This document shows, piece by piece, positions 15,736 through 61,700 of a DNA stretch of 64,000 nt (position 1 is its first letter; every line of letters begins with the position of its first letter). The notes beneath the pieces were generated by a model. It did not search any database and was not told the origin of the DNA. It was given only the letters and a program-made list of their open reading frames with translations. The stretch covers positions 62,001 through 126,000 of the forward strand of contig WWBZ02000018.1 in the NCBI GenBank assembly GCA_011503125.2. The letters are read 5' to 3'. The translations under genes were made by a program, and so were the position numbers. The DNA comes from Botryosphaeria dothidea. Lineage: Eukaryota > Ascomycota > Dothideomycetes > Botryosphaeriales > Botryosphaeriaceae.

Positions 15736-15822
15736 TTATCTTTATATCTTCCTTAATTATTATACTCTCTTTAATTTTTATCAGTAGTTAATTATGAGAT
15801 GGGTATATATTGTAGAAAAAAA

Positions 15823-18066
15823 ATGAACAGCTTATTTGTTTTTAATGAAAGTTTTACTAATGGTTATAGAGGTGAACTTTTAGATTTTATAGCTTTAACT
15901 GCTATTTTATGTGGTATTTTAGTTATTATTACTAAAAATCCTGTTGTGTCTGTTTTATTTTTAATTGGTTTATTCTTAAGTATAAGTGGTTATTTAATCA
16001 TGTTAGGTATAAATTTTATAGGTTTATCTTATTTATTAGTATATGTTGGTGCCGTATCTATACTATTTCTTTTCATTTTAATGTTAATTAATGTTAGAAT
16101 ATCTGAGTTAGTTAGTGATACTAGTAATAGTATACCATTAGCTATAATAATTGGTATCTTATTTAACTATGTTGTTTATGAAATTTTACCTTATAGTATC
16201 GTAGCTTTCAACAGTTATACTGTTAATTTAAATAACTCTTTAAAAGATCTTCTGTCTAATAGCTATAGTAGCGATTATATTAAAAAAGTATTTAATTTTG
16301 CTAACGATAGTAGTGATATTGCCTTTGTAACATCTAAAATTTGAGATGGGAACTTGGCAGAAACAAGTCATATAACTAATATTGGTAATATTATGTATAC
16401 TAGTTATTCTATATGACTTATTATTACTTCTGTTATTTTATTATTAGCCATGATCGGGGCAATAGTAATTACTATTAAACAAAAAAAAGATGATACATAT
16501 AAAAAAGATTCTGAATATCTAATAGATAAAAATATTAAAGATGTAACACTAAATTCTCATAATAAAAGTATAAAAAGTATACTATTTAATAAACGTAGTT
16601 TCCATACTAAATCTTCATGTCGTAATAGTTTAGATACCTCAAGTGATAGTGGTAATGATATTACTATTAGTGATAAAAAATGGTGATTGGTTTTAGATAA
16701 GCCTATGCAAAATAGTCAAAACATAGCGACTAAACACATAAGAAGCGGTGAAGCCATTACAGCTAATATAATAAATAGAATTTTATCTATTTATAATTTA
16801 CATGTCACAGATGAAGCATTAAAAGCATTAGTTAATACACCTAAGTTAAAATTCAATAATCTAAATAAATCTTTATATAAAGATTCCAGTTTCATAGAGA
16901 AACTGGGAAAAATGAATGGTAAAGAAGTAGCAGGAGTATATATCTTTACTCATAAAGAGACTGGTGATAAATATGTAGGTTCTTCTGTACAATTGGCTAC
17001 TAGACTACAAAGATATTTAAGTGGTACTTATAAAGAATATGGTAAATTTTTACCTTTATTAAGTAAAGAAGGTTTAGATAAATTTAGCTTAGAAGTTATG
17101 CCTATATATTCTGTTATGGTCTTAAAGCCTGAACTTATATTAGAACAATATTATCTATTAGATCCTTCATTTAATTTAAATGTATCTAGAGTAGCTAATG
17201 TTCCTGGATTTAAATCTAAAGAAATCTTTATGTATAATAAAGATAAAACTACTTTAATATACCATTCGGATTCTATTAAGGATTTCTATGTTAAATTTGG
17301 TATTTGACATGCTGTTATTGTAAATAACATTGAAACAGGTTCGTATTATTTAGGTAAATATGTTTTCTCTTCCGTACCTATTCTTACAGCTGAAGAAGGA
17401 AAATATAGTGAGGAAGAAGTTAAAGGAATGTTAACTGAAGATAGATTAGTTACTACTTTGTTTATGTATAATAAAGATAAATCTATTTTATATTTTTCAG
17501 GATTAAAAAGTGAATTTGCTCAGTTAGGAATACATACTTGAAACTTAAATGTCTCAAAATATATTAATACGGGTTCTCTTTATTTGGATAAATATATTTT
17601 AACTACTGCTGAGGTATTAACTGCTAATCCTTCTGGTATGTCTGTATCTGAAATAATGGAAATGTTGAATAAGGATAAAGAGAATTTGAATGTTATTTCA
17701 GGTAAAGGTAAAAAAGTAGTTTTATTGGATGTTAAAGACAATAAAACTTTAAGCTTTAAAAGTTTATCTGCTTGTGCTGAATATTTTAGAGGTTTGGGTC
17801 TTAAAACTACAGGTAATACCTTGAAGTCTCGTTTAGATTCTGGAATTGAATATAATGGATATATAGTAAAGTGAGATGAGGATCAAACATCTGTGCACAA
17901 TAGAGCTAAATACATATCTATTACTAATCAGGAAACTGGCTTAACTCACACTTATTCTTCTCTTCGTGATGCAGAGCGTAATACTAAAATATGGCGTGAA
18001 ACTATTAAAAAGTATGCTAATACTAATGAGCCTTATAATGGTTTAATTATATCTTTTGTTGAATAA
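15823..18066 (+). CDS. nad6: nad6 fused in frame to a GIY-YIG endonuclease
   Basis: One open frame of 747 codons in code 4, with Trp TGA at several sites. Residues 1 to about 220 are a complete Nad6, a complex I membrane subunit: MNSLFVFNESFTNGYRGELL, NFIGLSYLLVYVGAVSILFL, then '..AMIGAIVITIKQKK'. Instead of a stop the frame runs on through a hydrophilic linker (residues about 225-360) into a GIY-YIG domain near residue 366 (AGVYIFTHKETGDKYVGSS) and DNA-binding-like repeats (FMYNKDKTTLIYHSDSIKDF). No intron boundary or 3' nad6 exon is needed. The ATG at 15823 was preferred to 15799 because it matches family N-termini. How a functional Nad6 is released, by processing or by tolerating the fusion, is unknown. 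Confidence 0.9.
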
Positions 18067-29484: not shown

Positions 29485-29514
29485 TAATCCAAGTTCGATT
29501 CTTGGCTGATATAA
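29485..29514 (+). pseudogene. 3' half of a trnR(UCU)-like tRNA
   Basis: 'AATCCAAGTTCGATTCTTGG' directly precedes the copied nad2 start. It corresponds to the T-arm of the trnR(UCU)-like tRNA in front of the real nad2 (52718-52786). The 5' half is absent. Confidence 0.7.
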
Positions 29515-30826
29515 TGTTACTTATTTCTTTAATTTTATTATTAATGTCTAATGCCGTTACTACTAGACGTGATAAATCTATATTATATTCTCGTGTTGTT
29601 ATTATAATATTATTATCTCTTATAATTATTTTATTTGTTAGTATTTTATACACTTTTTATGGATTCTATTCATATTTCTTATTAGGTTTAAAATACAGCT
29701 TATCTTTCTTATCTTACTTAATATCAAATAGTGATATGTTTTTTGGTTCATTAATTGAGTTAGTGCAGAACTCAGATATTGTAATACTTAGTACTCCAAT
29801 TGTTTTATACTATAAAGCTGATACTTTAAAATCATCGGAATTAAAAGATAATAAAGGAAAAACTGATATTTATAAGTGAACACAGATAGCATCGGGAAAA
29901 AGTTACGCAGGGTCTGCTATTGATTTATCTAAAAGATTTAGAAACTATTATAATATCTCGTACTTAGAAAGAGAAAGCAAGAAAAACAATAGTATGATTT
30001 ACAAAGCGTTGATTAAATATGGGTATAATAGTTTTGAGTTAAAAATATTAGAATATTATGATCCTGTCGTTCTGCTCTCTCTTATTTCTTATAGAAATAA
30101 GAGAGAAAACTAAGAGTAATATTATCTTTACTTAATTCTGAATATAATATTTTAAAAAAAGCAGGATCATTAGTAGGATTTAAACATTCAGAAGCTTCAA
30201 AAGAACTTATGAAAAAAAAGTCATATGAGACGTGTAATCTTAGAAGAAACTATATTAGCTAGATCAAGTTTGAAAGCCCAAGCTACAATTGTAATTAATG
30301 AAGCTACAGGTGAAGTTTTAACATTTACATCTGTCAGAAAGGCTGCAGAGTACATTGGTATATATTAGTTATATTTCTAAATCCTTAGAGGAGGTTAAAT
30401 TTTATTTAGGTAAAGGGTTCATTGTACATAAAATTAATGTTTCATATTCAGATATATTCAGCAGTACGGCTTATGCAGAAGCCCTCTACTCCAGAGAATA
30501 TAGTATAAATCACAGTGAGGCTTCAAAAGAGCTTCTTAGAAAAGCTAATTTGGTCCGTAAACATTCTACGGAAACTTTACAAAAATTATCGACTAATAGT
30601 ACTAATTCAAAAGCTGTCCTTGTAATTAATAATTTGAATATGGAAACTAAATAGTTTTCTTTAATATCATCTTCCGCTTTCCAGGGGGACCGTAAAGGTC
30701 CCACCTGGACAGGCCCCCTTTGGAGGAGGGACTAGATATTTAAGCGTGGATGAGTCATATGTACGTAGTTGTATTAAAAACAATAAACCATATAAAGGAC
30801 CTACAATATTTAGAAAAAGTGCATAA
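29511..30826 (+). pseudogene. nad2 5' end fused to a decayed GIY-YIG endonuclease
   Basis: The first about 31 codons are an almost exact copy of the nad2 start at 52788 ([20 protein letters not shown], a few differences in 100 nt). The frame then diverges and enters a GIY-YIG module at about 29840: 'LKDNKGKTDIYKW', 'KSYAGSAIDLSKRF' and 'ALIKYGYNSFELKILEYY'. GIY has become DIY and YIG has become YAG. A palindrome ('CTCTCTTATTTCTTATAGAA', about 30074) breaks the frame, and the C-terminal repeats follow in fragments (NHSEASKELLRKANLVRKHS), split by a GC cluster at about 30680. The end 'FRKSA' stops at 30826. It is probably non-functional. Confidence 0.8.
30685..30740. repeat. GC cluster in the GIY-YIG relic
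   Basis: 'GGGGGACCGTAAAGGTCCCA' and 'GGAGGAGGGACTAG' flank a hairpin. It ends in ACTAG and interrupts the C-terminal repeat region of the relic. Confidence 0.75.
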
Positions 30827-49434: not shown

Positions 49435-50142
49435 ATGATATTACTTAAATCAATATTATTATTTTTTATGTCTAATGCCGTTAAATCCTTACTTCTGATC
49501 TTTATTTATTTATTTATAAATAAAGATTTTGGGGTAGGTAGACGTGATAAATCTATATTATATTCTCGTGTTGCTATTATAATATTATATACAAAAATAA
49601 TCAAGTTATCAAAGAAATTAGGTAAAGTTCAGTTATCTAATTTAACACTATTTAGTAGTGTACTAAAAATATCGCCAATGTTTATTTGGTTTAATTGCGG
49701 TAGTTATATATTTAACTACTTAACTCTTTTTCTAGTAATTGTGTTTATTTTAACGAATCTTTATAATCGTGCAGGATTATTAACATTATTGGATATATTT
49801 ATTAATAAACGTGAAGGTTTATTGCTTCTTTTTAATACAATGTGATTTTTACCACACAAAACTTTATTAAAGATTACTTTAATAGGTATTCTCTCTGTTG
49901 CTGTTTTCTACCTAGTAATCGTAAAACAAATTTTTTATAAATTGGACTCAGAGTTGAATGATTTAAATCATACTGGACATATTTTTAATCGTGCAGGGTT
50001 AATACGTAATTTTACAATTAGTAATTATAATGTAAAATTATCCAGTTCTAACATTATATTAACATTATTTATATTTATACCTCAGGAATGATTAAGTATG
50101 GCTAATATATTAGCCCCAATTAAGACAAAAAATTATTCTTAA
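49435..50142 (+). CDS. nad2-like chimera with internal replacement
   Basis: 235 residues in one frame. The N-terminus copies nad2 (MSNAV, then [16 protein letters not shown]) but is interrupted after MSNAV by about 19 residues from an AT palindrome (TTTATAAATAAAGAT). The middle (about residues 50-135) is hydrophobic and unrecognised. The C-terminal about 90 residues match the Nad2 end ([36 protein letters not shown]) and finish KTKNYS. Most Nad2 transmembrane helices are missing, so it can hardly replace the full nad2 at 52788. The frame has nevertheless stayed open with Trp TGA. Expression is unknown. Confidence 0.65.
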
Positions 50143-50738: not shown

Positions 50739-51542
50739 GTAATATACAAAATATTTCATATAAAGTTTGTGCAGATTTTATGAATGAATATATTAACAAT
50801 GTTGGTATTACTTATACTGTTTTAGCTGTTTTAGTGGATGAAGAAAAAACATTAAATAGGGAGGTTGTAGCTCTTAGTGGTCAAATGATTATAACTAATT
50901 TAATTAATCCACAGGAAGTTTTAAATAGAATAGAATCTTCTCGTAAAAAAATTGCATCTAAATATGGAGTGGATGAAGTTGATGGAGAAATAATTATTAA
51001 ATTAAGAGTTATATCTTATGATGATAAAGTTTATAAAAATGTTTTAAACATACCTCAGATTGAAGAAGTATATCAACAAAAATCCTTAGATGTGTTTAAA
51101 TTTAATGATGATTCTATGCCTTTAACTACAGATCTTGATAAATATGGGGAAATTGTTAATAAAGATTATGTAGTTAACGGTGTTAAATTGTCAGGTGTAC
51201 ATTATCAATATAAAGATAATATAATAATATTTGTTCATGATATTGTTAATCAGGGTGAAAGAAGATTAACAGTGTTTAAAAATTATGCTAAATATGATGA
51301 ATGTGTTGATATTATAGATGAAAATAAAGATATATTTATTATAAAATATATGAATGGTTTTAGTATATATATTGATAATTTAACCAATAAAATATTGTAT
51401 ACTGAAAGTGTTATAGAGTGTAAACCTTTAGGAAAAGGTCGTATAGATCTTATAAAGGATAATAAAATATCGGCTTTTGATATTGAAGCTTATGAAGGGG
51501 ATGGAAGAATATTTATTCCCTATGCATGTGGATTTGTTACGC

Positions 51543-51599
51543 CTCCCCTCTGCGATTTTCTTCATATGTATATGAAGAAAGATCAGCGAGGGACAAAAA
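51543..51599. repeat. 57-nt palindromic element, copy B
   Basis: Identical to 18101-18157. It is inserted in the exonuclease region of the polymerase relic between 'ACGFVT' and 'YKLYYLTDF' and breaks the frame. Confidence 0.92.
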
Positions 51600-52619
51600 T
51601 AATTATAAATTATATTATTTAACAGATTTTAATAATTCAAGAGATATGCTTAAACAATGTATTATAGATATGTTAAATTCTGATTTAGGAACTGTACATG
51701 TCCATAATTTATCAAAATTTGATATATTTTTTATAAATAATATATTAAAAGAAGATGAGGATATAGTAAGTGATTATAAATTGAATAAAGATGGGAAAAT
51801 ACTTAGTGTAGGTGTTAAATTTAAAGATAAAAAAATGAAAGGTAAGTTTAGAGATAGTTTATTACTGATACAAGGTAGTTTAAAAGATATAACAGAAAGT
51901 TTTAATACAAAAAATGGTAAACTAACTTTTCCACATAAATTTGTTAAAGCTGATAATTTAAATTATGTAGGAGATAAACCTGATTTTAATTTTTATACTG
52001 ATATTGATGAATTAGATTATGAAAGTATACCTCCTAAAAACTGATGTTTAAAGGGTGAAGCTTAAAAATATTTAAAATATGATCTTATTAGTTTACAGGA
52101 AGTTGTTGTTAAATTCTCTAATGATATATATGTCTTGGAATAATTAAATATAACTAAAACACCTACTACTAGTTCTATAGCATTTAAAGCACTTACAACT
52201 AATTATCTTAAAAGCGGATTGTTGTTCCAAGTTAAAGGTAGAGCTCATGATTAAATGATACAGGTATATTACGGGGGGGGAATAACAGAGGTATATAACT
52301 TAAAAGCTGATAAAAAAAATTAATATATATGATATTAATTCATCATATCCTGCTTCTATGACACAAGCTATGCCTATAGGAAAACCTGTATTTAGTACGG
52401 ATCAAGGAGGATTAGATAAATATTTTGGTATTGTATATGCCGAAATAGAAACCCCTAAAAACCCTAAAGGAGATTTTATTGATTATCCTCCTTTACCTTT
52501 TAGATTATCAGATGGGATTATTATAAATCCTATTGGTAGATGAAAGGGAATGTATTGTAGTGAATTATTAAAATATGTAAGAGAATAAAATTTATTCTCT
52601 ATAAGTACCCTAATCATAA

Positions 52620-52717: not shown

Positions 52718-52786
52718 TCTTATTGGCTTAATGGTAAAGCAGGATGCTATTAGTATCTAGATCCAGGTTCGAGTCTTGGATAAGAA
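52718..52786 (+). tRNA. trnR(UCU)-derived tRNA with altered anticodon
   Basis: It matches trnR(UCU) at 63221-63289 nearly throughout (acceptor TCTTATT/GATAAGA), but the anticodon loop is CTATTAG, giving AUU instead of UCU. It ends one base before the nad2 ATG, so it may persist as an RNA-processing signal even if it no longer decodes. Confidence 0.65.
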
Positions 52787-52787
52787 T

Positions 52788-55700
52788 ATGTTACTTACTT
52801 CTTTAATTTTATTATTAATGTCTAATGCCGTTACTACTAGACGTGATAAATCTATATTATATTCTCGTGTTGCTATTATAATATTATTATATTCAAGTTT
52901 CTTATGTTACAGTGGTCTAAATATATCATTTTTAGAAAAAGGAATTGGTTTATACGGGGGCTTATTTTATGTTAACAGTACTACACAAATTTTCCATCTA
53001 TTTGTACTATTATTAAGTGCATCAATATTAAGTTTAACTGCTTTCTATCCTAGAAAAATTTGATTAGAAAACTACTCTAGCTTTAATCACTTAATCTTTT
53101 CTAAGTTCTTAAACTATAAAACAAAAATAATAAATAAAATGGGTGAACAATTTAGAATTATAGAATATCCACTTATAATTTTATTTATAGTAAGTGGAGC
53201 TTTATTTTTAATGTCAAGTAGTGATATAGTTTCAATATTTTTATCTATAGAATTACAAAGTTATGGTTTATATTTATTAAGTACCATATATAGAAACTCG
53301 GAATTAGCTACTAGTGGAGGTCTTACATATTTCTTATTAGGGGGTCTATCTTCTTGTTTTATATTATTATCAACTAGTTTATTATATGCTAATTCTGGTA
53401 CTACTAGTCTAGATAGTTTATATGTAATAACTAGCATATCAGAAACATCTCTTGATAATACAAATATACTATATTGATATAAACCATATTATATACATCT
53501 TTCATTACTTATTATGTCAGTAGGATTTTTATTCAAAGTGAGTGCAGCACCTTTCCATTTCTGAAGTCCTGAATTATGATCTGGGAAATCATTAAAGTCA
53601 CTATCATCGTGATTACGGGACCAATTGCCAAATTCCGGAGACGCCCTAGAACTTAAGGTACCAAGCTATGGTCTAATGTCCATGTGTGGATGAACTAATC
53701 ACTCATGTAAGGTAACAAGCCTTAAGACTTCTGAAAAGAGAGTGGGTTATCGCGGATCTAACTCAGTCACTGGTTTATCTCTAAATAAACTACAAACTGT
53801 AAAAGAACAACGAGTATACGGTAATTGATACGATTTATCGTATTTAAGATGTACTCTATTAGGTTTCGAGAGAAATCGTTCAGTAAAAATCCCTTATAAC
53901 CAAATTATGCTAAAACGACTTTTTACAAATACCCCGGGGGGGTTGCCCCAGCAAGCCTACGGGGGAGACCCTCACAGGGGGGCTAGTAATAATATTAACA
54001 CTAAGTCCCGAAGGGGACTTCCCCTTAAGAAGGCCCCTGGAGGGACCTTACCGCAGGGTAAGACTTCTTCTATTAATTTACTTATTTTACCTTGATTTGT
54101 TACAGGGTTCACAGATGCCGAAGGATGTTTCACTATTATATTGCGTAAATCACCTTTCTCTTCGAGAAGGTCCCTTAAGGGGCCTGACCGTGAGACAGGC
54201 CCCTTTGGGACTAGAAGCAACACAGGTTGAAAAATCGAAGCTAATTTTATTATTAATCTTCATAAAAAAGATGTTGAACTCTTAAAACGTATTCAAGAAT
54301 TTTTTTGTGGTTTTGGGCGTATAAGTAAAGAGAGAAAAGGTTGTCGTGATTTTACGGTCAGTTCTTTAGATCAAATTATCACAGTAATTATTCCTCACTT
54401 TGACAAATATCCATTAATCACTCAGAAGCTTGGGGATTATCTTCTATTTAGAGAGGTTGTTATGATGATGAAGCAAGGTAAACATTTAACATCTGAAGGT
54501 TTAAAAGGAATTATTAATATTAGAGCTTCTATGGATAGAGGGTTAACTCCTGCATTGAAAGAAGCTTTCCCTGATTATGTTTCTGTGTCTAGACCTTTAG
54601 TTGACATTCACAAATTACTTCCTATTCATCCTTATTGAATTGCAGGTTTTGTCTCGGGTGATGGTTCTTTTATGGTTAAATTGAGAGTTAATAATGTTTA
54701 TAGTGCAGGTGGCCGTATTGAGTTGGCCTTTGTTTTAACTCAACACTCTCGTGATCTGACACTTATTAAATGTTTAGCTGATTTATTCGCATGTGGGCAG
54801 GCTTATGCTTATAAGGATTATGCGGAATTTAAATGTCGTACTTTCAAGGATATCTATGAAAAGATCTTGCCTTTTTTCCTTAAATATCCTATCCTTGGTA
54901 TTAAATCAAAAGATTTCGAAGATTGATCCAAGGTTGCGGAGATTATTAATTCGAAGGCTCATCTTACTAAGGAAGGATTTGAACAAATTCAAGAGATTAA
55001 GGCTGGAATGAATAGAGGTAGAGAAAATGTTTAATACTTTTTATATTACTTATATTACATCCGATTTTTACATTATATAATGTCTTATTTTGTTATATAT
55101 TATCTTTGTATAAAGTTGTTAAGCTAATTTGTACGATAAATTTTACTACCAAGGATGTCTATGACGCTATACCTACTATAGTTACAACATTTGTAGCTAT
55201 TGTAGCTAAAGTATCTATATTTATTTTCTTCTTAGGGTTAGTGCATTACACTAGCAAATCTTTATTCTCTTTCAACTATTCATGAACTACTAGTTTATTG
55301 TTGAGTTCGTTATTATCATTAATAGTGGGGTCAGTACTTGGTTTAACTCAATTTAGAATAAAAAGATTATATGCTTATAGTACAATTTCACATGTAGGTT
55401 TTATACTATTAGCTTTAAGTGTGTACAGTATAGAATCAGTACAAGCATTTATTTTCTATTTAATGCAATATTCAGTCTCTAATTTAAATTCATTTATAAT
55501 TTTAGTTACTATGGGGTATTCATTATATCTTTATACAAATGATGATGCAAATTATAAAGATCTTCAAGATAAAAATAATTCACCTATACAACTTATTAGT
55601 CAAATAAAAGGATACTTTTATATAAATCCACTTTTAGCATTGAGTTTATCTATAAGTCTTTTCTCTTTTGCCGGTATTCCCCCTTTAATGGGATTCTTTG

Positions 55701-56059
55701 CTAAACAGATGGTATTTAGTGCTGCACTAGATAATGGTTATGTTTTCATTACATTAGTTGCAATATTAACAAGTGTAGTAAGTGCAGTTTACTACTTAGC
55801 AGTTATAAAACAAGTTTTCTTTGAAAAACCTGATTATAAGTTAAATTCAGAATTAAATGATTTAGTACTTACAGGTAATATTATTAATCGTGCAGGGTTA
55901 ATACACAAATTTACATATAATGCTGGAAATATAAAATTATCAGGACATCAAACTATTACAATTTCTATATTAACTCTTGTTATTTTACTATTTATATTTA
56001 TACCTCAGGAATGATTAAGCATGGCTAATATATTAGCCCTTATTATGTTTAACCCTTAA
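52788..56059 (+). CDS. nad2: NADH dehydrogenase subunit 2 (two exons)
   Basis: Antiporter-like membrane subunit of complex I. Exons 52788-53570 and 55154-56059 join in frame to 562 residues, typical for fungi. The junction [19 protein letters not shown] is conserved. Other landmarks are [40 protein letters not shown] and [16 protein letters not shown]. The start ATG follows a tRNA with one base between. The stop TAA is followed after two bases by the nad3 ATG, a close nad2-nad3 arrangement. Near-copies of the first about 30 codons stand at 29511 and 49435, and the last about 90 codons have a diverged copy at 49870-50142. Confidence 0.95.
53907..55034 (+). CDS. LAGLIDADG endonuclease in nad2 intron, with in-frame GC clusters
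   Basis: 375 residues in code 4. Motif 1 is [17 protein letters not shown] (about residues 63-79) and motif 2 [16 protein letters not shown] (about residues 243-258). The usual blocks are present ([35 protein letters not shown]). Two GC clusters contribute coding sequence without breaking the frame: one in the N-terminus ([17 protein letters not shown] and [17 protein letters not shown]), one between motif 1 and the first helix ([20 protein letters not shown]). The ATG at 53907 lies just before the first cluster; the true start may differ. The protein may still fold, since the insertions fall at a terminus and a loop. Confidence 0.85.
53930..54062. repeat. GC clusters in the N-terminus of the nad2 intron HE
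   Basis: 'CCCCGGGGGGGTTGCCCC' to 'CAGGGGGGCTAG' and 'CCCGAAGGGGACTTCCCC' to 'CCGCAGGGTAAG', separated by an AT stretch. A third cluster is at 54163-54214 ('GAAGGTCCCTTAAGGGGCCT' .. 'TTTGGGACTAG'). Confidence 0.8.
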
Positions 56060-56061
56060 AT

Positions 56062-57348
56062 ATGACTAGTACTACATTCTTTCTTGTATTTATACCTATA
56101 TTAGCTGTTATTCTTTTAGCAGTAAATTTAATTTTAGCTCCACATACTCCTTATGAAGAAAAAGGTTCGGCGTTCGAGTGTGGTTTTCATTCTTTCCAGC
56201 AAACTAGAAGTCCTTTTAATATTTCATTCTTTATATTTGCCTTGTTATTTCTTCTTTTTGATTTAGAGATATTATTAGTATATCCTTATGTTGTTAGTGC
56301 CTATACAAACGGTGCTTATGGTTTAATAGTAATGCTTATTTTCTTTGTCATGTTAACTTTAGGTTTCGTATTTGAATTAGGGAAAGGAGCCCTAAAAATC
56401 GATAGTAGACAATACAATAATATAAGCGATAATGTTGTTAAAAATAACCTCATTATACATATAAAAAATTTAAGAGGTAATTCTCAAACTCGGTCTTTTT
56501 ATCAAAAGAGGTATTATTCCACAGGCCCGTCTAATAATGTGCCTATTGCTGTATATGATAATGCATATGATGATAAAGATAGAATATTAAGAGAAAATAA
56601 AGGTAAATCTGGTATTTATCGTTGAATTAACCTCAATAATGGTAAAAGTTATGTAGGTTCTTCTGTGCACCTAAAAGAAAGATTTATTAGTTACTATAAT
56701 ATAAATCATCTTAGAGATAACTATAGTATGTTAATCTGTCGTGCTTTAATTAAGTACGGTTATTCTAGTTTCAAATTGGAGATTTTAGAGTATTGCACTC
56801 TTGAAGATCTTGTAGCTAAAGAAAATTATTATATAGACCTTCTAAACCCTAAGTATAACATAGTTCAGGAATCTAGCACTATGCCTTCTAGATTAGGGTT
56901 TACTCATAGTAAGACTACTATAGTTAAAATAGCTAAAGCTCAACCTAGTAGAGTAACAGTTTCAGTAAAAGATCTTTTGACTAATACTGAAAAAATATAT
57001 CACTCTATAAGAGAAGCAGAGAAAGATTTAAACCTAGCTCACGGTCGAATTGTAAAATATTTTAATAGTAATCAGATCAAACCTATGAATAAAAGATATA
57101 TTATAACTAAATTAGAAACAACTTATGTAAAAACAACTAAAGTTGTAGAGTCTTGACGTACAGGTATAAGAATAGAGGTATTAGATTTAGATACTGGTGT
57201 TACAACAATTTATTCTACTATCCGTAGTGCAGCCAAAGAATTAGGCATAGCACGTTCCACTATTAGTAATTATCTACAGTCAGGTGAGCCTTATATGAAT
57301 AAGTATAAGTTTTCTTATTTTAAGTCTAGTTCACCTGATAATGAGTAA
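56062..57348 (+). CDS. nad3: nad3 fused in frame to a GIY-YIG endonuclease
   Basis: A single frame of 428 residues. Residues 1 to about 118 are a full Nad3, a small complex I membrane subunit: MTSTTFFLVFIPILAV, YEEKGSAFECGFHSFQQTRS, LVYPYVVSAYTNGAYGL, and GKGALKIDSRQ. A linker of about 60 residues leads to 'ENKGKSGIYRWINLNNGKSY' and 'VGSSVHLKERFISYY' (GIY at about residue 179), then ALIKYGYSSFKLEILEYC, EN in KENYYIDLLNP, and two C-terminal repeats (STIRSAAKELGIARSTIS). All key motifs look intact. No intron core lies between the parts. A redundant nad3 3' end remains downstream. Confidence 0.92.
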
Positions 57349-57360
57349 ATCTCATAAACT

Positions 57361-57710
57361 GGCTTTCATTCTTTCCAACAAACTAGATCTAGGGGCCCCC
57401 CCGCCCCGTGGATCCACCCCCCCCCCTCTAAAGGGGGGGGGGGGGTAGATCTCCTTTCAATATATCTTTCTTCATTTTCGCTCTTTTATTTTTACTATTC
57501 GATTTAGAAATTCTTTTAGTTTATCCTTACGTAGTTAGTGCTTATACTAACGGTTCTTACGGTTTAATTATTATGTTAATATTCTTTGTCATGTTAACTT
57601 TAGGTTTCGTATTTGAATTAGGTAAAGGAGCTTTAAAAATTGACAGTAGACAAAATGAATCTTTATTTAATAAAGGTAATAATTATTACCATTTTAATAT
57701 AAAAAAATAA
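57361..57710 (+). pseudogene. Displaced original 3' end of nad3
   Basis: It repeats nad3 from about codon 41 to the end ('FHSFQQTR', then FNISFFIFALLFLLFDLEIL and GKGALKIDSRQNESLFNK) with mainly silent differences from the fused copy and its own stop. It has no start, and a GC cluster (57385-57452) splits it. This is what remains if a cassette of 'nad3 3' part + GIY-YIG' inserted into nad3 near codon 41. Confidence 0.9.
57385..57452. repeat. GC cluster in the displaced nad3 end
   Basis: 'CTAGGGGCCCCCCCGCCCCG' then 'GGATCCACCC' and '..GGGGTAGATCT', bounded by AGATCT. It is related to 45537-45588. The native bases are 'ACTAGAAGTCC'; here 'ACTAGATCT' precedes and 'AGATCTCC' follows the insert. 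Confidence 0.88.
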
Positions 57711-58223
57711 TAATACATATAAAAAAGCTTTTTATATTCTACTAGTAGCCTAAATTTTTTCCCTAGAGACTAGCCCCCTGCGGGGGCGTGGTCTCCTCCC
57801 CTTCCTCCCCCTCCCCTCCGGGGGGGGGGGGGAAGAGACTAGTGTATATTTAAATATATATTTTTTATAGCTAAAAAATACGAAAAATTTGTTTTTCCGA
57901 ATGGTACCTCCTGCCTACTGCTGGCGAAGCAAGTGTCGGTCGCCCTTAGGTATAATTAATCAGGTAAAATTTAATCAGATACATACTACAGTAAGAGTAA
58001 ATAATAATAATATTTATATGATTTTTAAATTTATACAAAATTTGTTAAATTTAATATTCTCTTTTATTTTATATAGAGAGAAGAAAAGTACGTTACGTAA
58101 AAAGTTTTTTTCTAGATTATTGTTTTTTAGAATCTAAAAGGTGTAATTATTTTTATTAATTAAAATTCCTTTAGGTATATAATATATAATATAACATATG
58201 CAAGTAAAAATATAATATAATAA
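57711..58223. other. Spacer with GC cluster before atp9
   Basis: A GC cluster at about 57768-57842 ('ACTAGCCCCCTGCGGGGGCG' .. 'GAAGAGACTAGT') is bounded by ACTAG at both ends. A second GC-rich piece lies at about 57898-57950. The rest is AT-rich leader with no supportable gene. Confidence 0.6.
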
Positions 58224-58797: not shown

Positions 58798-61700
58798 ATG
58801 AGAATTTTAAAAAGTCATCCTCTTTTAAAACTGGTTAATTCATATGTGATTGATTCACCTCAACCTTCTAATATTAGTTATTTATGAAATTTTGGTTCTT
58901 TATTAGGTGTATGTTTAGTTATTCAGATTGTGACTGGAGTAACATTAGCGATGCATTACAATCCTAGTGTTTTAGAAGCATTTAACTCAGTTGAGCATAT
59001 TCCTGCAATCTCATAATGTGTTCATTAAACCAAGCTAATTGCTGAAATATCCTTCATTTTATAAAGGATAATTAGCAGGAAAATTTATAATTTATTATAA
59101 AGTTCTTCAGAGACTACACGCTTGGCATCTATATAGGAATAGAATATAGATGATGATATAGTCCAAAAACAGCTGAAAAGTTGTTTATTAATGTTTATTA
59201 ATATAGATTGTTCATTAGATATATCTGTATTATTTACCGCATGTATTGTAAAGAATCAAGAAGTTTATACTAAACCAAAAGAATTAAATTTTTTAGAAAG
59301 AGTATCAAAAGATTTCTTGTATTGATTTTCAGGTTTTACTGATGCAGAGGGAAATTTTTTAATTTCTTTTGATCATGGATATGTTAGATTTAGATTTAAA
59401 ATATGTTTACATATCGATGACATAGGAGTTTTATATACTATTAAAAATAATTTAGGTTTTGGTAGAGTAACCGTAGAAGGAAAAGCTTCTTGTTCTTTTG
59501 TGGTAGACAAGTTTGAAGATATTAAATTATTATTAGTTCTCTTTAAAGCTTTCCCATTATTAACTATCAAAAGATTGGATTATGAAAGTTTTTCTAAAGC
59601 TGTTCATGTGAAAATTGATAGTAAAAAATTATCTGAATCTGAAAATAAAAAGATTCTTGCTATTAAAAAAGGTATGAACAGAAAAAGAGTAATATCTTCA
59701 AACTTAAATATGACCAATATTACAAGTATTAATCCTAACTGATTAATAGGGTTTATAGAAGGAGAAGGAACTTTTGGTATTAAAAATTGATCTTCCTTAT
59801 ATATGCAGGTAGCTCAAAAAAATACTAGCAAAGAAGTATTAAATGCTATAGCTAATTTTTTATCTAGCTTACCTTCTAGTAATGAATTTGCAAGTAATTG
59901 TAAAATATTACCTTTAAATGTACTAAGTTTCGAAAACAAAAGAACAAAGGTAATATCTTTAGTAATTAATAGCACAGATAGTTTATATTATTATATACTA
60001 CCTTACATAGAATCTCATACTATGTATACTCGTAAATATATAGACTATAAACTATGAAAAGCAGCTTTACTACTAAAAATACATGGTTACTTTCTTTTAC
60101 CTGAAGGTAAAGCATTGTTTATGGATATTGCTAATATTCTTAATAAAAGATATAGTACAAAATCTTCTTTTGTTCTGCAAAAAACAGAGGAAGTAATTTA
60201 CAATATCTTTGTAAGATTAGAGGCAATCTTATTAACAACTTCTCCTTTTAAAGTAGAGGATAATATACCACATATTGTAAATGTAAGAGCATTTAATACA
60301 GCGAATAGATCTAAACAGCAAACGACTGTTTATGTCTATAACAATGGTAAATTAATTCCAGGGTCTCCTTTTTCTACTTATAGTAAAGCACATTTAGCTT
60401 TAGGATTAAGAAGTAGTAGTAATATGTGTGGTCGTTATATTGACACAGGTAAATTATACAAGGGAATATATCTAATATCTTCTATACCTAAAGATTAGCC
60501 ATCTTTAGGTGTACATTTTGATTATGAGGGATGTAAATAATGGATGATTAATTCGTTATTTACACGCTAACACTGCTTCTGCTTTCTTCTTCTTAGTTTA
60601 TTTACATATAGGAAGAGGTTTATACTATGGGTCTTACAGAGCACCAAGAACTCTAGTATGAGCTATAGGTACTGTAATATTAATACTAATGATGGCTACT
60701 GCTTTCCTGGGTTATGAACATAGCCCAAAATGGTTTAATATAAGTATTTTCTATGCAATTATTTTAATTATTGTATATTATACTATACAAAATTTAGTTA
60801 AAAGAAATAAGGTTTTAATATACCCAGTAGGAAATATTGTGAAAAATACAAAGTATAATAAATTAAATAATAAGTCAACATACTTTTTAAATAAAAGAAG
60901 ATATAGTACAATTCCTTGTTCAAATAATAGTATTAAATTTAGTTCTGAAAGATTAAATTCAATAATTAAAGAATTAGGATTAAATCCTGTGTATATTTTT
61001 GAAAACCTAGATTCAGAAAATATTAGAAAACAAATATTAAATGAGACTAAAGGTTTAAGTGGTATATACATGATAGTTAATAAAATAACTAAAGATTACT
61101 ATATTGGTTCTGCGGCAACTAATAAATTTTATGCTAGATTCAGCAATCATCTAATTTATTTCAGAGGTAGCAAAATAGTTAAATCTGCAGTAAAAAAATA
61201 TGAATTAGAGAATTTTGCTTTTATAATATTAGAATTATATCCTAATATTGTTACTAAAGAAAATAATAAAGAATTGTTGAATTTAGAAGATAAATATTTA
61301 AAATTGTTATTGCCTAATTATAATATTTTAACTGAGGCAGGTTCCAGTTTTGGTTATAAACATACTGAAGTTGACCGTCAAAAAATGAAAGACATATATA
61401 GCGAAGCAAGACGGGAAAAGATAGGTAGTTTAAATAGAGGTAAAAGACTTTCTCCTGAAACAATAGAAAAAATTAGAGAGAAAGCATTAAATAGACCACC
61501 TATGTCTGATGAGACTAAAAAAAAATGTATTAAACATACAAGACCTGTAGTCTTATATAATCTGAATGGAACTGTTTACGGTGAATATTCTACTATCTTA
61601 GATGCAGCTAATTCTATAAACTGTGGCGAAAAAACTATTAGAAGAGCACTAAAAACAGAAAAAGGATTAGTAAAAAGACAATGAATAGTAAAAGATTTGT

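Follow-up and report, generated by a model that had tools for sequence, protein, structure and literature searches.

Insertions that bring a foreign C-terminus together with an endonuclease gene into a mitochondrial gene were first described for atp6 of Allomyces macrogynus (cited in the available parts of PMC3630166 and PMC4019555), for which the second source, in the part available, favours an alternative in which the homing endonuclease (HE) relocated to a position past the stop codon. In Glomus sp. DAOM-229456, gene hybrids are described in atp6, atp9, cox2 and nad3, with an inserted C-terminus and a mobile endonuclease ORF followed downstream by the native C-terminus; the nad3 insert and its ORF are in phase, and the native ends are closer to a relative than the inserted ends are (PMC3630166, available part). 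The D-type genes of Tremella fuciformis, nad3-D included, come with a mobile insert that carries duplicates of host genes; isolates with and without the insert occur, the model put forward is partial foreign gene replacement, and nad3-i1 proved by cDNA to be downstream sequence and not a spliced intron (PMC7315562, available sections). In Chrysoporthe austroafricana and Cryphonectria parasitica, a nad3-like 5' region is joined to GIY-YIG and a second nad3 lies nearby (PMC4894602, in its available part; P0023), and HE ORFs of Endoconidiophora resinifera have duplicated C-termini of atp6 and cob in their vicinity (PMC6279837, accessible part). For nad3 of Coniothyrium glycines, the annotated length is 418 aa (PMC6221350, accessible part), a value that the 418-aa fusion P0003 matches in length alone, which suggests that NAD3–HE fusions may be annotated elsewhere as long nad3. 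The available parts of other reports yielded no nad3 case of the layout described below (PMC5626475, PMC7999263, PMC4162613, PMC8260586, PMC6506933, PMC10234125, PMC10815617 and PMC8451660).

The nad3 locus analysed here lies in the window, the whole 64,000-nt stretch under study, and shares with Glomus and Tremella a second nad3 end downstream (PMC3630166 and PMC7315562, available parts). Judging from the same sources, it differs from Glomus in that the nad3 HE of the latter is a LAGLIDADG enzyme (GIY-YIG occurring in atp9 only) whereas here it is GIY-YIG, in that the inserted nad3 end starts there at nt 194 (codon ~65) and here at codon 40/41, and in that the native nad3 end is still part of the mRNA there but is broken by a GC cluster here; it differs from Tremella, a basidiomycete, in that the duplicated part is called N-terminal there and the model starts from an intron. 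The Allomyces hybrid affects another gene in another phylum, and the Cryphonectriaceae copies are called partial nad3 duplications, 2,061 and 98 bp from the endogenous nad3, not a cassette (PMC4894602, available part). This type of event is already known from Allomyces, Glomus, Tremella and the Cryphonectriaceae, and the layout of the present copy is unusually clear: a selfish gene rewrote, apparently by homing, most of an essential respiratory gene, the empty-site, occupied and displaced ends are all in hand, and the cost to the protein is two residues before a variable tail. An old question, how a host protein functions with an endonuclease welded to its end, becomes testable, and one concrete candidate answer is the conserved motif of the linker, which resembles a processing-peptidase site.

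Layout of the nad3 locus

The window belongs to contig C14 (145,619 bp) of a 51.7-Mb, 78-contig assembly. Since C14 1–16945 repeats 118040–134982 at 99.86%, we read the contig as a circular mitogenome of ~118 kb. The RPB2 protein of the host, compared over 922 aa, shares 96% identity with that of Neofusicoccum parvum, 90% with that of Phyllosticta citricarpa and 86% with that of Aplosporella prunicola, which makes a member of the Botryosphaeriaceae the most likely host. Under genetic code 4, the gene order is nad2, nad3, atp9 and cob (nad3 and cob by Pfam, nad2 and atp9 by eye). The features of the locus, in window coordinates and named according to the reading argued for below, are:

56062–57348, + strand: fused ORF, NAD3 plus linker plus GIY-YIG/NUMOD1 HE (428 aa, table 4)
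56062–56181, + strand: resident nad3 5' part, codons 1–40, the last residue being the Cys of FECGF (38/40 identical to HE-free P0121)
56181–57359, + strand: inserted cassette, 1,179 bp (repeat 56181–56208 / 57360–57387, spacing 1179)
56182–56412, + strand: cassette-borne nad3 3' part, codons 41–117, in frame with the resident 5' part
56413–56607, + strand: NAD3–HE linker, residues 118–182
56509–56523, + strand: RYYST, residues 150–154, candidate site matching the Icp55/MPP consensus
56608–56859, + strand: GIY-YIG catalytic domain, residues 183–266 (Pfam, alignment, Foldseek)
56956–57318, + strand: two C-terminal modules (AF2), residues 299–351 and 371–419
57346–57348, + strand: stop of the fused ORF, then an 11-nt spacer to 57359
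57360–57387, + strand: displaced native nad3 3' end, first piece, from codon 40/41 (sequence repeat)
57388–57449, + strand: 62-nt GC cluster, frameshifting, with TAGATCT direct repeats at both edges
57450–57710, + strand: displaced native nad3 3' end, second piece (TAA stop 57708–57710)

In the 428-aa ORF, Pfam recognizes Oxidored_q4 at residues 16–112 (100 bits), GIY-YIG at residues 183–266 (37.1 bits for a cut-off of 22.6) and NUMOD1 (62.1 bits in 2 stretches, the best at 369–405). Across 22 aligned proteins there is no variation at Y186, Y197, G199, R207 and N266, and at least 90% share E254; we take the conserved Y, Y, R, E and N to be the catalytic residues of I-TevI. The top PDB match of the predicted structure in Foldseek is the I-TevI catalytic domain (1ln0, E 6e-4, TM 0.74 by target length), which phmmer matched again (E 9e-4). 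The Pfam score, the catalytic residues and the predicted I-TevI fold all identify the fused protein as a putative GIY-YIG HE. The AlphaFold2 model of the whole fusion is weak overall (mean pLDDT 68.6, pTM 0.33), with pLDDT below 50 at residues 111–157 and block values of 37–73 in NAD3, 83–93 at residues 161–260 of the GIY-YIG part and 79–89 in the C-terminal modules.

The repetition of nad3 within the locus comprises 245 nt at 78% identity and 28 nt at 93%, spaced by 1,241 and 1,179 nt, which excludes chance. A TGG direct repeat at 56181 and 57360 bounds the 1,179-bp unit, so the edges of the cassette are ambiguous by up to 3 nt. The displaced end is interrupted by the GC cluster between 7-nt TAGATCT repeats at 57384–57390 and 57446–57452 (read by eye, then checked), and the cluster shifts the frame since 62 mod 3 is 2. 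The mitogenome holds 25 GC-rich stretches of at least 24 nt, 10 of them of at least 35 nt, so an insert of 62 nt is ordinary there; a second GC cluster lies just past the displaced nad3 end, at 57765–57842, between 9-nt repeats AGAGACTAG. The first-pass annotation had described nad3 as fused in frame to an intact-looking GIY-YIG protein and followed 13 nt later by a second copy, running from about codon 41 to the stop, whose old end a GC cluster had broken. The fusion, the presence of the second copy, its extent (from 57360/57361 to 57708–57710) and its loss of frame all agree with our data; the spacing is corrected to 11 nt (57349–57359).

A search of the 51.7-Mb assembly for nad3, in which scores cover the best candidates only, gave 4 matches at E ≤ 0.001, two at this locus and two in the circular overlap of the contig, and among these best candidates there was neither a second intact nad3 nor a nuclear match. 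The copy of the cassette at the contig head (C14 1–1618, compared with 118040–119656) has several small indels in the ORF, which are probably end-of-contig sequencing errors and may alternatively reflect heteroplasmy.

The same layout is found in nad1, just outside the window (C14 57474–61369, window −4526 to −631). The NAD1 C-terminus is in frame with GIY-YIG, NUMOD3 and NUMOD1 (C14 58520–60856, window −3480 to −1144; the Pfam scan covered the first 493 aa), and a second nad1 3' end follows 4 nt past the stop of the fused ORF (C14 60861–61369). The two nad1 ends compare over 71 codons in a part A (33 same, 17 silent, 21 replacement) and over 39 in a part B (23 same, 11 silent, 5 replacement); judged from these codons, the nad1 case is older or more decayed than that of nad3. 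The view that nad3 is the clearest case in the window thus holds, with a second, more decayed one sitting just beyond its edge. We also observed nad6 fused in frame to GIY-YIG/NUMOD1 (window 15799–18066, 755 aa, NUMOD1 being just below the Pfam cut-off); no displaced nad6 end was found by self-BLAST (E 1e-8) or by a looser search with the NAD6 part, which gave only short AT-rich matches.

Partial extra 5' and 3' ends of nad2 occur at window positions 29487–29616, 49935–50116, 52761–52890 and 55834–56039, one 5' copy running into an ORF (29502–30113) that is GIY-YIG-like by eye and has no Pfam match. A repeated ORF, recognized by eye by LVEYL.SL..QIDIS, is present at C14 51220–52917 and at 59517–60853, the latter inside the nad1 cassette, and by eye also in P0007, where it replaces the enzyme in the C-terminal region. 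A fragment of a type B DNA polymerase, organellar or viral (DNA_pol_B_2, Pfam), lies at window 51526–52062.

Origin of the two nad3 ends

Over codons 41–118, the two ends have 44 of 78 codons identical, 31 differing synonymously and 3 by a replacement, the last of which falls in the variable tail; the differences, earlier described as silent, are mostly so but not wholly. Identity at codon positions 1, 2 and 3 is 69, 77 and 47 of 78. Restricting the comparison to codons 41–117 (77 codons), 39 of 231 nucleotides and 2 residues differ, and the NG86 estimates are dS 1.21 and dN 0.046. The resulting dN/dS of ~0.04 indicates that both ends diverged as working genes, unlike a decaying local copy. 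When 39 changes were placed at random on the fused end, none of 5,000 runs yielded fewer than 16 residue changes, and with 19 changes none of 3,000 runs yielded fewer than 7, against the 2 observed. A stretch of 13 codons in which all third positions agree (shuffle p 0.023) could point to a limited amount of gene conversion between the two ends. In codon usage, the ends are indistinguishable (sign-flip p 0.44).

The protein database contains an HE-free NAD3 of 135 aa, P0121, and the resident 5' part plus the displaced end also amount to 135 aa. P0121 matches resident codons 1–40 at 38 of 40 residues and the displaced end at 94 of 95, i.e. 132 of 135 in total, and the 18-aa variable tail of the displaced end, NESLFNKGNNYYHFNIKK, is identical in it at all 18 positions. 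We scored tails against the 211 obtained from 240 listed proteins, leaving out those of at most 5 residues, with 30 shuffled queries. The displaced tail scores 102 with P0121 and 31 with the next protein, the best of 30 shuffles reaching 38; the fused tail scores 125 with P0001, 93 with P0007 and 39 with P0122, the best shuffle reaching 43. P0001 is a 428-aa fusion like the window ORF and is 90% identical throughout. Over residues 41–117, the fused end has 3 differences from P0121 and the displaced end 1, a small contrast, and residues 1–40 are uninformative here, agreeing with the fused P0001 at 39/40 and with the empty P0121 at 38/40. The alignment of both ends to relatives that had been proposed as a check therefore comes out, at the protein level, with the displaced end beside the HE-free P0121 and the fused tail beside NAD3–HE fusions; the displaced end matches the HE-free relative and the inserted end does not.

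On these protein comparisons, occupied and empty alleles both exist among apparent close relatives, P0121 and P0001 being presumably kin of the host. The fused end would come from a donor of another lineage, as the dS of this one pair and the protein tails suggest. A search of viral contigs for relatives' nad3 DNA found none. Prokaryote assemblies gave seven nad3 loci, two of which were read; at 59–75% identity they are too distant for silent-site tests. We regard the presence of such fungal-type mitochondrial nad3 contigs in seven records of prokaryotes (with titles such as Fictibacillus barbaricus and Tolypothrix) as contamination.

Probable cassette insertion and its alternatives

Since P0121 corresponds to the 5' part plus the displaced end, we conclude that a 1,179-bp unit, nad3 3' end plus HE gene, entered nad3 at codon 40/41. 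The TGG-bounded unit, the match to P0121 and the dN/dS of ~0.04 bear out the insertion at about codon 41 proposed in the first-pass annotation: the new end is in phase with the resident 5' part, the HE ORF comes next and the resident end lies downstream, where it is identified as the displaced one by its lack of codons 1–40. This mode of insertion is well supported.

The sequence of events would be as follows. A mobile cassette, consisting of the 3' end of nad3 and an in-frame GIY-YIG HE gene, would enter a resident, HE-free nad3 at codon 40/41, the HE most likely cutting the empty allele nearby and the break being repaired from the mitochondrial DNA of a donor in which the cassette was already present. 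Host NAD3 would then consist of its own first 40 codons and the remaining codons of the donor, read through into the HE, and the old 3' end would be left 11 nt past the HE stop, its frame being lost later to the GC-cluster insertion. Release of NAD3 would follow, perhaps through cutting of the linker at RYYST by the matrix processing peptidase. We infer cleavage by the HE at this site and repair from a donor. Enzymes of the GIY-YIG family, I-TevI among them, cleave DNA away from the insertion point itself, and the cut may thus fall to either side of GGCTTTCATTCTTTCCA. Taken as a whole, from entry at codon 40/41 through cutting and donor repair to the displacement and later breakage of the old end, we hold this explanation to be very probable.

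Recombination between mitotypes occurs in fungi, and the hybrid could also be the product of two diverged mitochondrial genomes that shared a cell and recombined in the ordinary way, with the HE as a passenger that did not cut nad3. We regard this as very unlikely, given that the end of the unit, 11 nt beyond the HE stop, and the start of the displaced end, at the point where the nad3 part of the cassette begins, are what homing leaves, and that NAD3–GIY fusions make up, by pattern, 21 of the 240 listed proteins, with a second GIY-YIG cassette in nad1 of this mitogenome.

A group I or II intron with an ORF, whose exons would be codons 1–40 and the downstream copy and whose fused nad3 part would be an intron-borne duplicate, is less probable again. 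In-frame extension of the 5' exon into the HE is typical of intron ORFs, and nad4-i2 of Tremella fuciformis is a true intron by cDNA that carries a host-gene duplication (PMC7315562, available part). Against an intron here, no Rfam intron family is matched in 56050–57760 up to E 5, while a like search of similar length at nad1 yields group I matches (E 0.0031 and 0.0073, both below the gathering score). Many real fungal introns escape the Rfam models, so the missing match alone is weak; but 11 nt alone separate the ORF stop from the second end, and 62 nt put the supposed second exon out of frame. Group I introns follow a U and end in G, and group II introns start with GUGYG and end in AY; none of the 4 registers allowed by TGG fits either rule. 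The displaced end was also considered as an alternative exon and rejected, being frameshifted, devoid of an intron match and without a legal junction register.

Least probable of all is a tandem duplication in situ of the host nad3 end, in which the downstream copy would have drifted as a pseudogene and the HE gene come in independently. Fungal mitogenomes with truncated tandem copies have been described (PMC4162613 and PMC6506933, available parts), but the excess of silent over replacement codon differences (31 to 3, dN/dS ~0.04), the agreement of the displaced tail (18/18) with an independent HE-free NAD3 and of the fused tail with other HE fusions, and the start of the displaced end 11 nt past the HE stop all speak against it.

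A processing-peptidase-like motif in the linker

Returning to the fusion produced by the proposed insertion, we found R-x-[YF]-[ST]-[ST] in the linker of 20 of the 21 NAD3–GIY-YIG fusions recognized by pattern among the 240 listed proteins, and in the window ORF as RYYST. It occurs after residue 60 in 0 of 120 short proteins without a GIY pattern and is absent from the 8,054 residues that follow the GIY motif in 35 proteins. Reducing the 21 linkers to 18 by removal of near-identical ones leaves 17 of 18 positive, for a shuffled mean of ~0.3 and a maximum of 3 of 18; note that the pattern was chosen after viewing the alignment and that the 18 linkers are homologous. Other GIY proteins of the set carry the motif ahead of the domain in 7 or 8 of 14 cases. 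The published consensus for Icp55 and the processing peptidase, RX(F/Y/I/L)↓(S/A)(S/T) (PMC8847149, available part), to which our pattern is close, is present in 14 of the 18 linkers (shuffle mean 0.64, maximum 4). The stretch of up to 25 residues that precedes the motif, its R included, has a net charge of +1 to +7 in the 17 positive linkers and of +6 in the window ORF.

The motif is not confined to NAD3 fusions. Among the 31 HE ORFs recognized by pattern in this mitogenome, window ORF included, the motif precedes the domain by at most 110 residues in 7 (2 GIY-YIG and 5 LAGLIDADG), for a shuffle mean of ~0.3 and a maximum of 4; the published consensus also gives 7 (mean 0.66, maximum 5). Downstream of the HE domain start, these ORFs contain 1 motif in 7,699 residues, and non-HE ORFs contain 3 in 10,550; one of the 8 matches in the 7 motif-bearing ORFs falls in a core-gene part. 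The codons differ between motif copies, which shows that the protein is what is kept. The motif is missing from 24 of the 31 ORFs, the nad1 and nad6 fusions included, and from both outside LAGLIDADG ORFs that were recovered by pattern from three loci.

Such a site could explain how NAD3 is freed from the HE. In its full form, the proposal is that such fusions contain a built-in site for the matrix processing peptidase, the basic linker and R-x-Y↓S-T mimicking an import presequence so that the peptidase frees NAD3, a device of both GIY-YIG and LAGLIDADG enzymes that would make in-frame insertion into essential genes harmless; we give it about even chances of being right. For the motif in host nuclear matrix proteins, 4 families were searched and 12 loci read, from which N-terminal exons were not recovered with confidence. 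A link between HE fusions and a peptidase site was not found in the titles and abstract starts of the open-licence papers listed, and the linker motif in NAD3–HE fusions is possibly new. Further motifs stand shortly before LAGLIDADG or GIY-YIG domains at C14 28744, 29797, 32749, 36019, 104494 (window 42494) and 4857.
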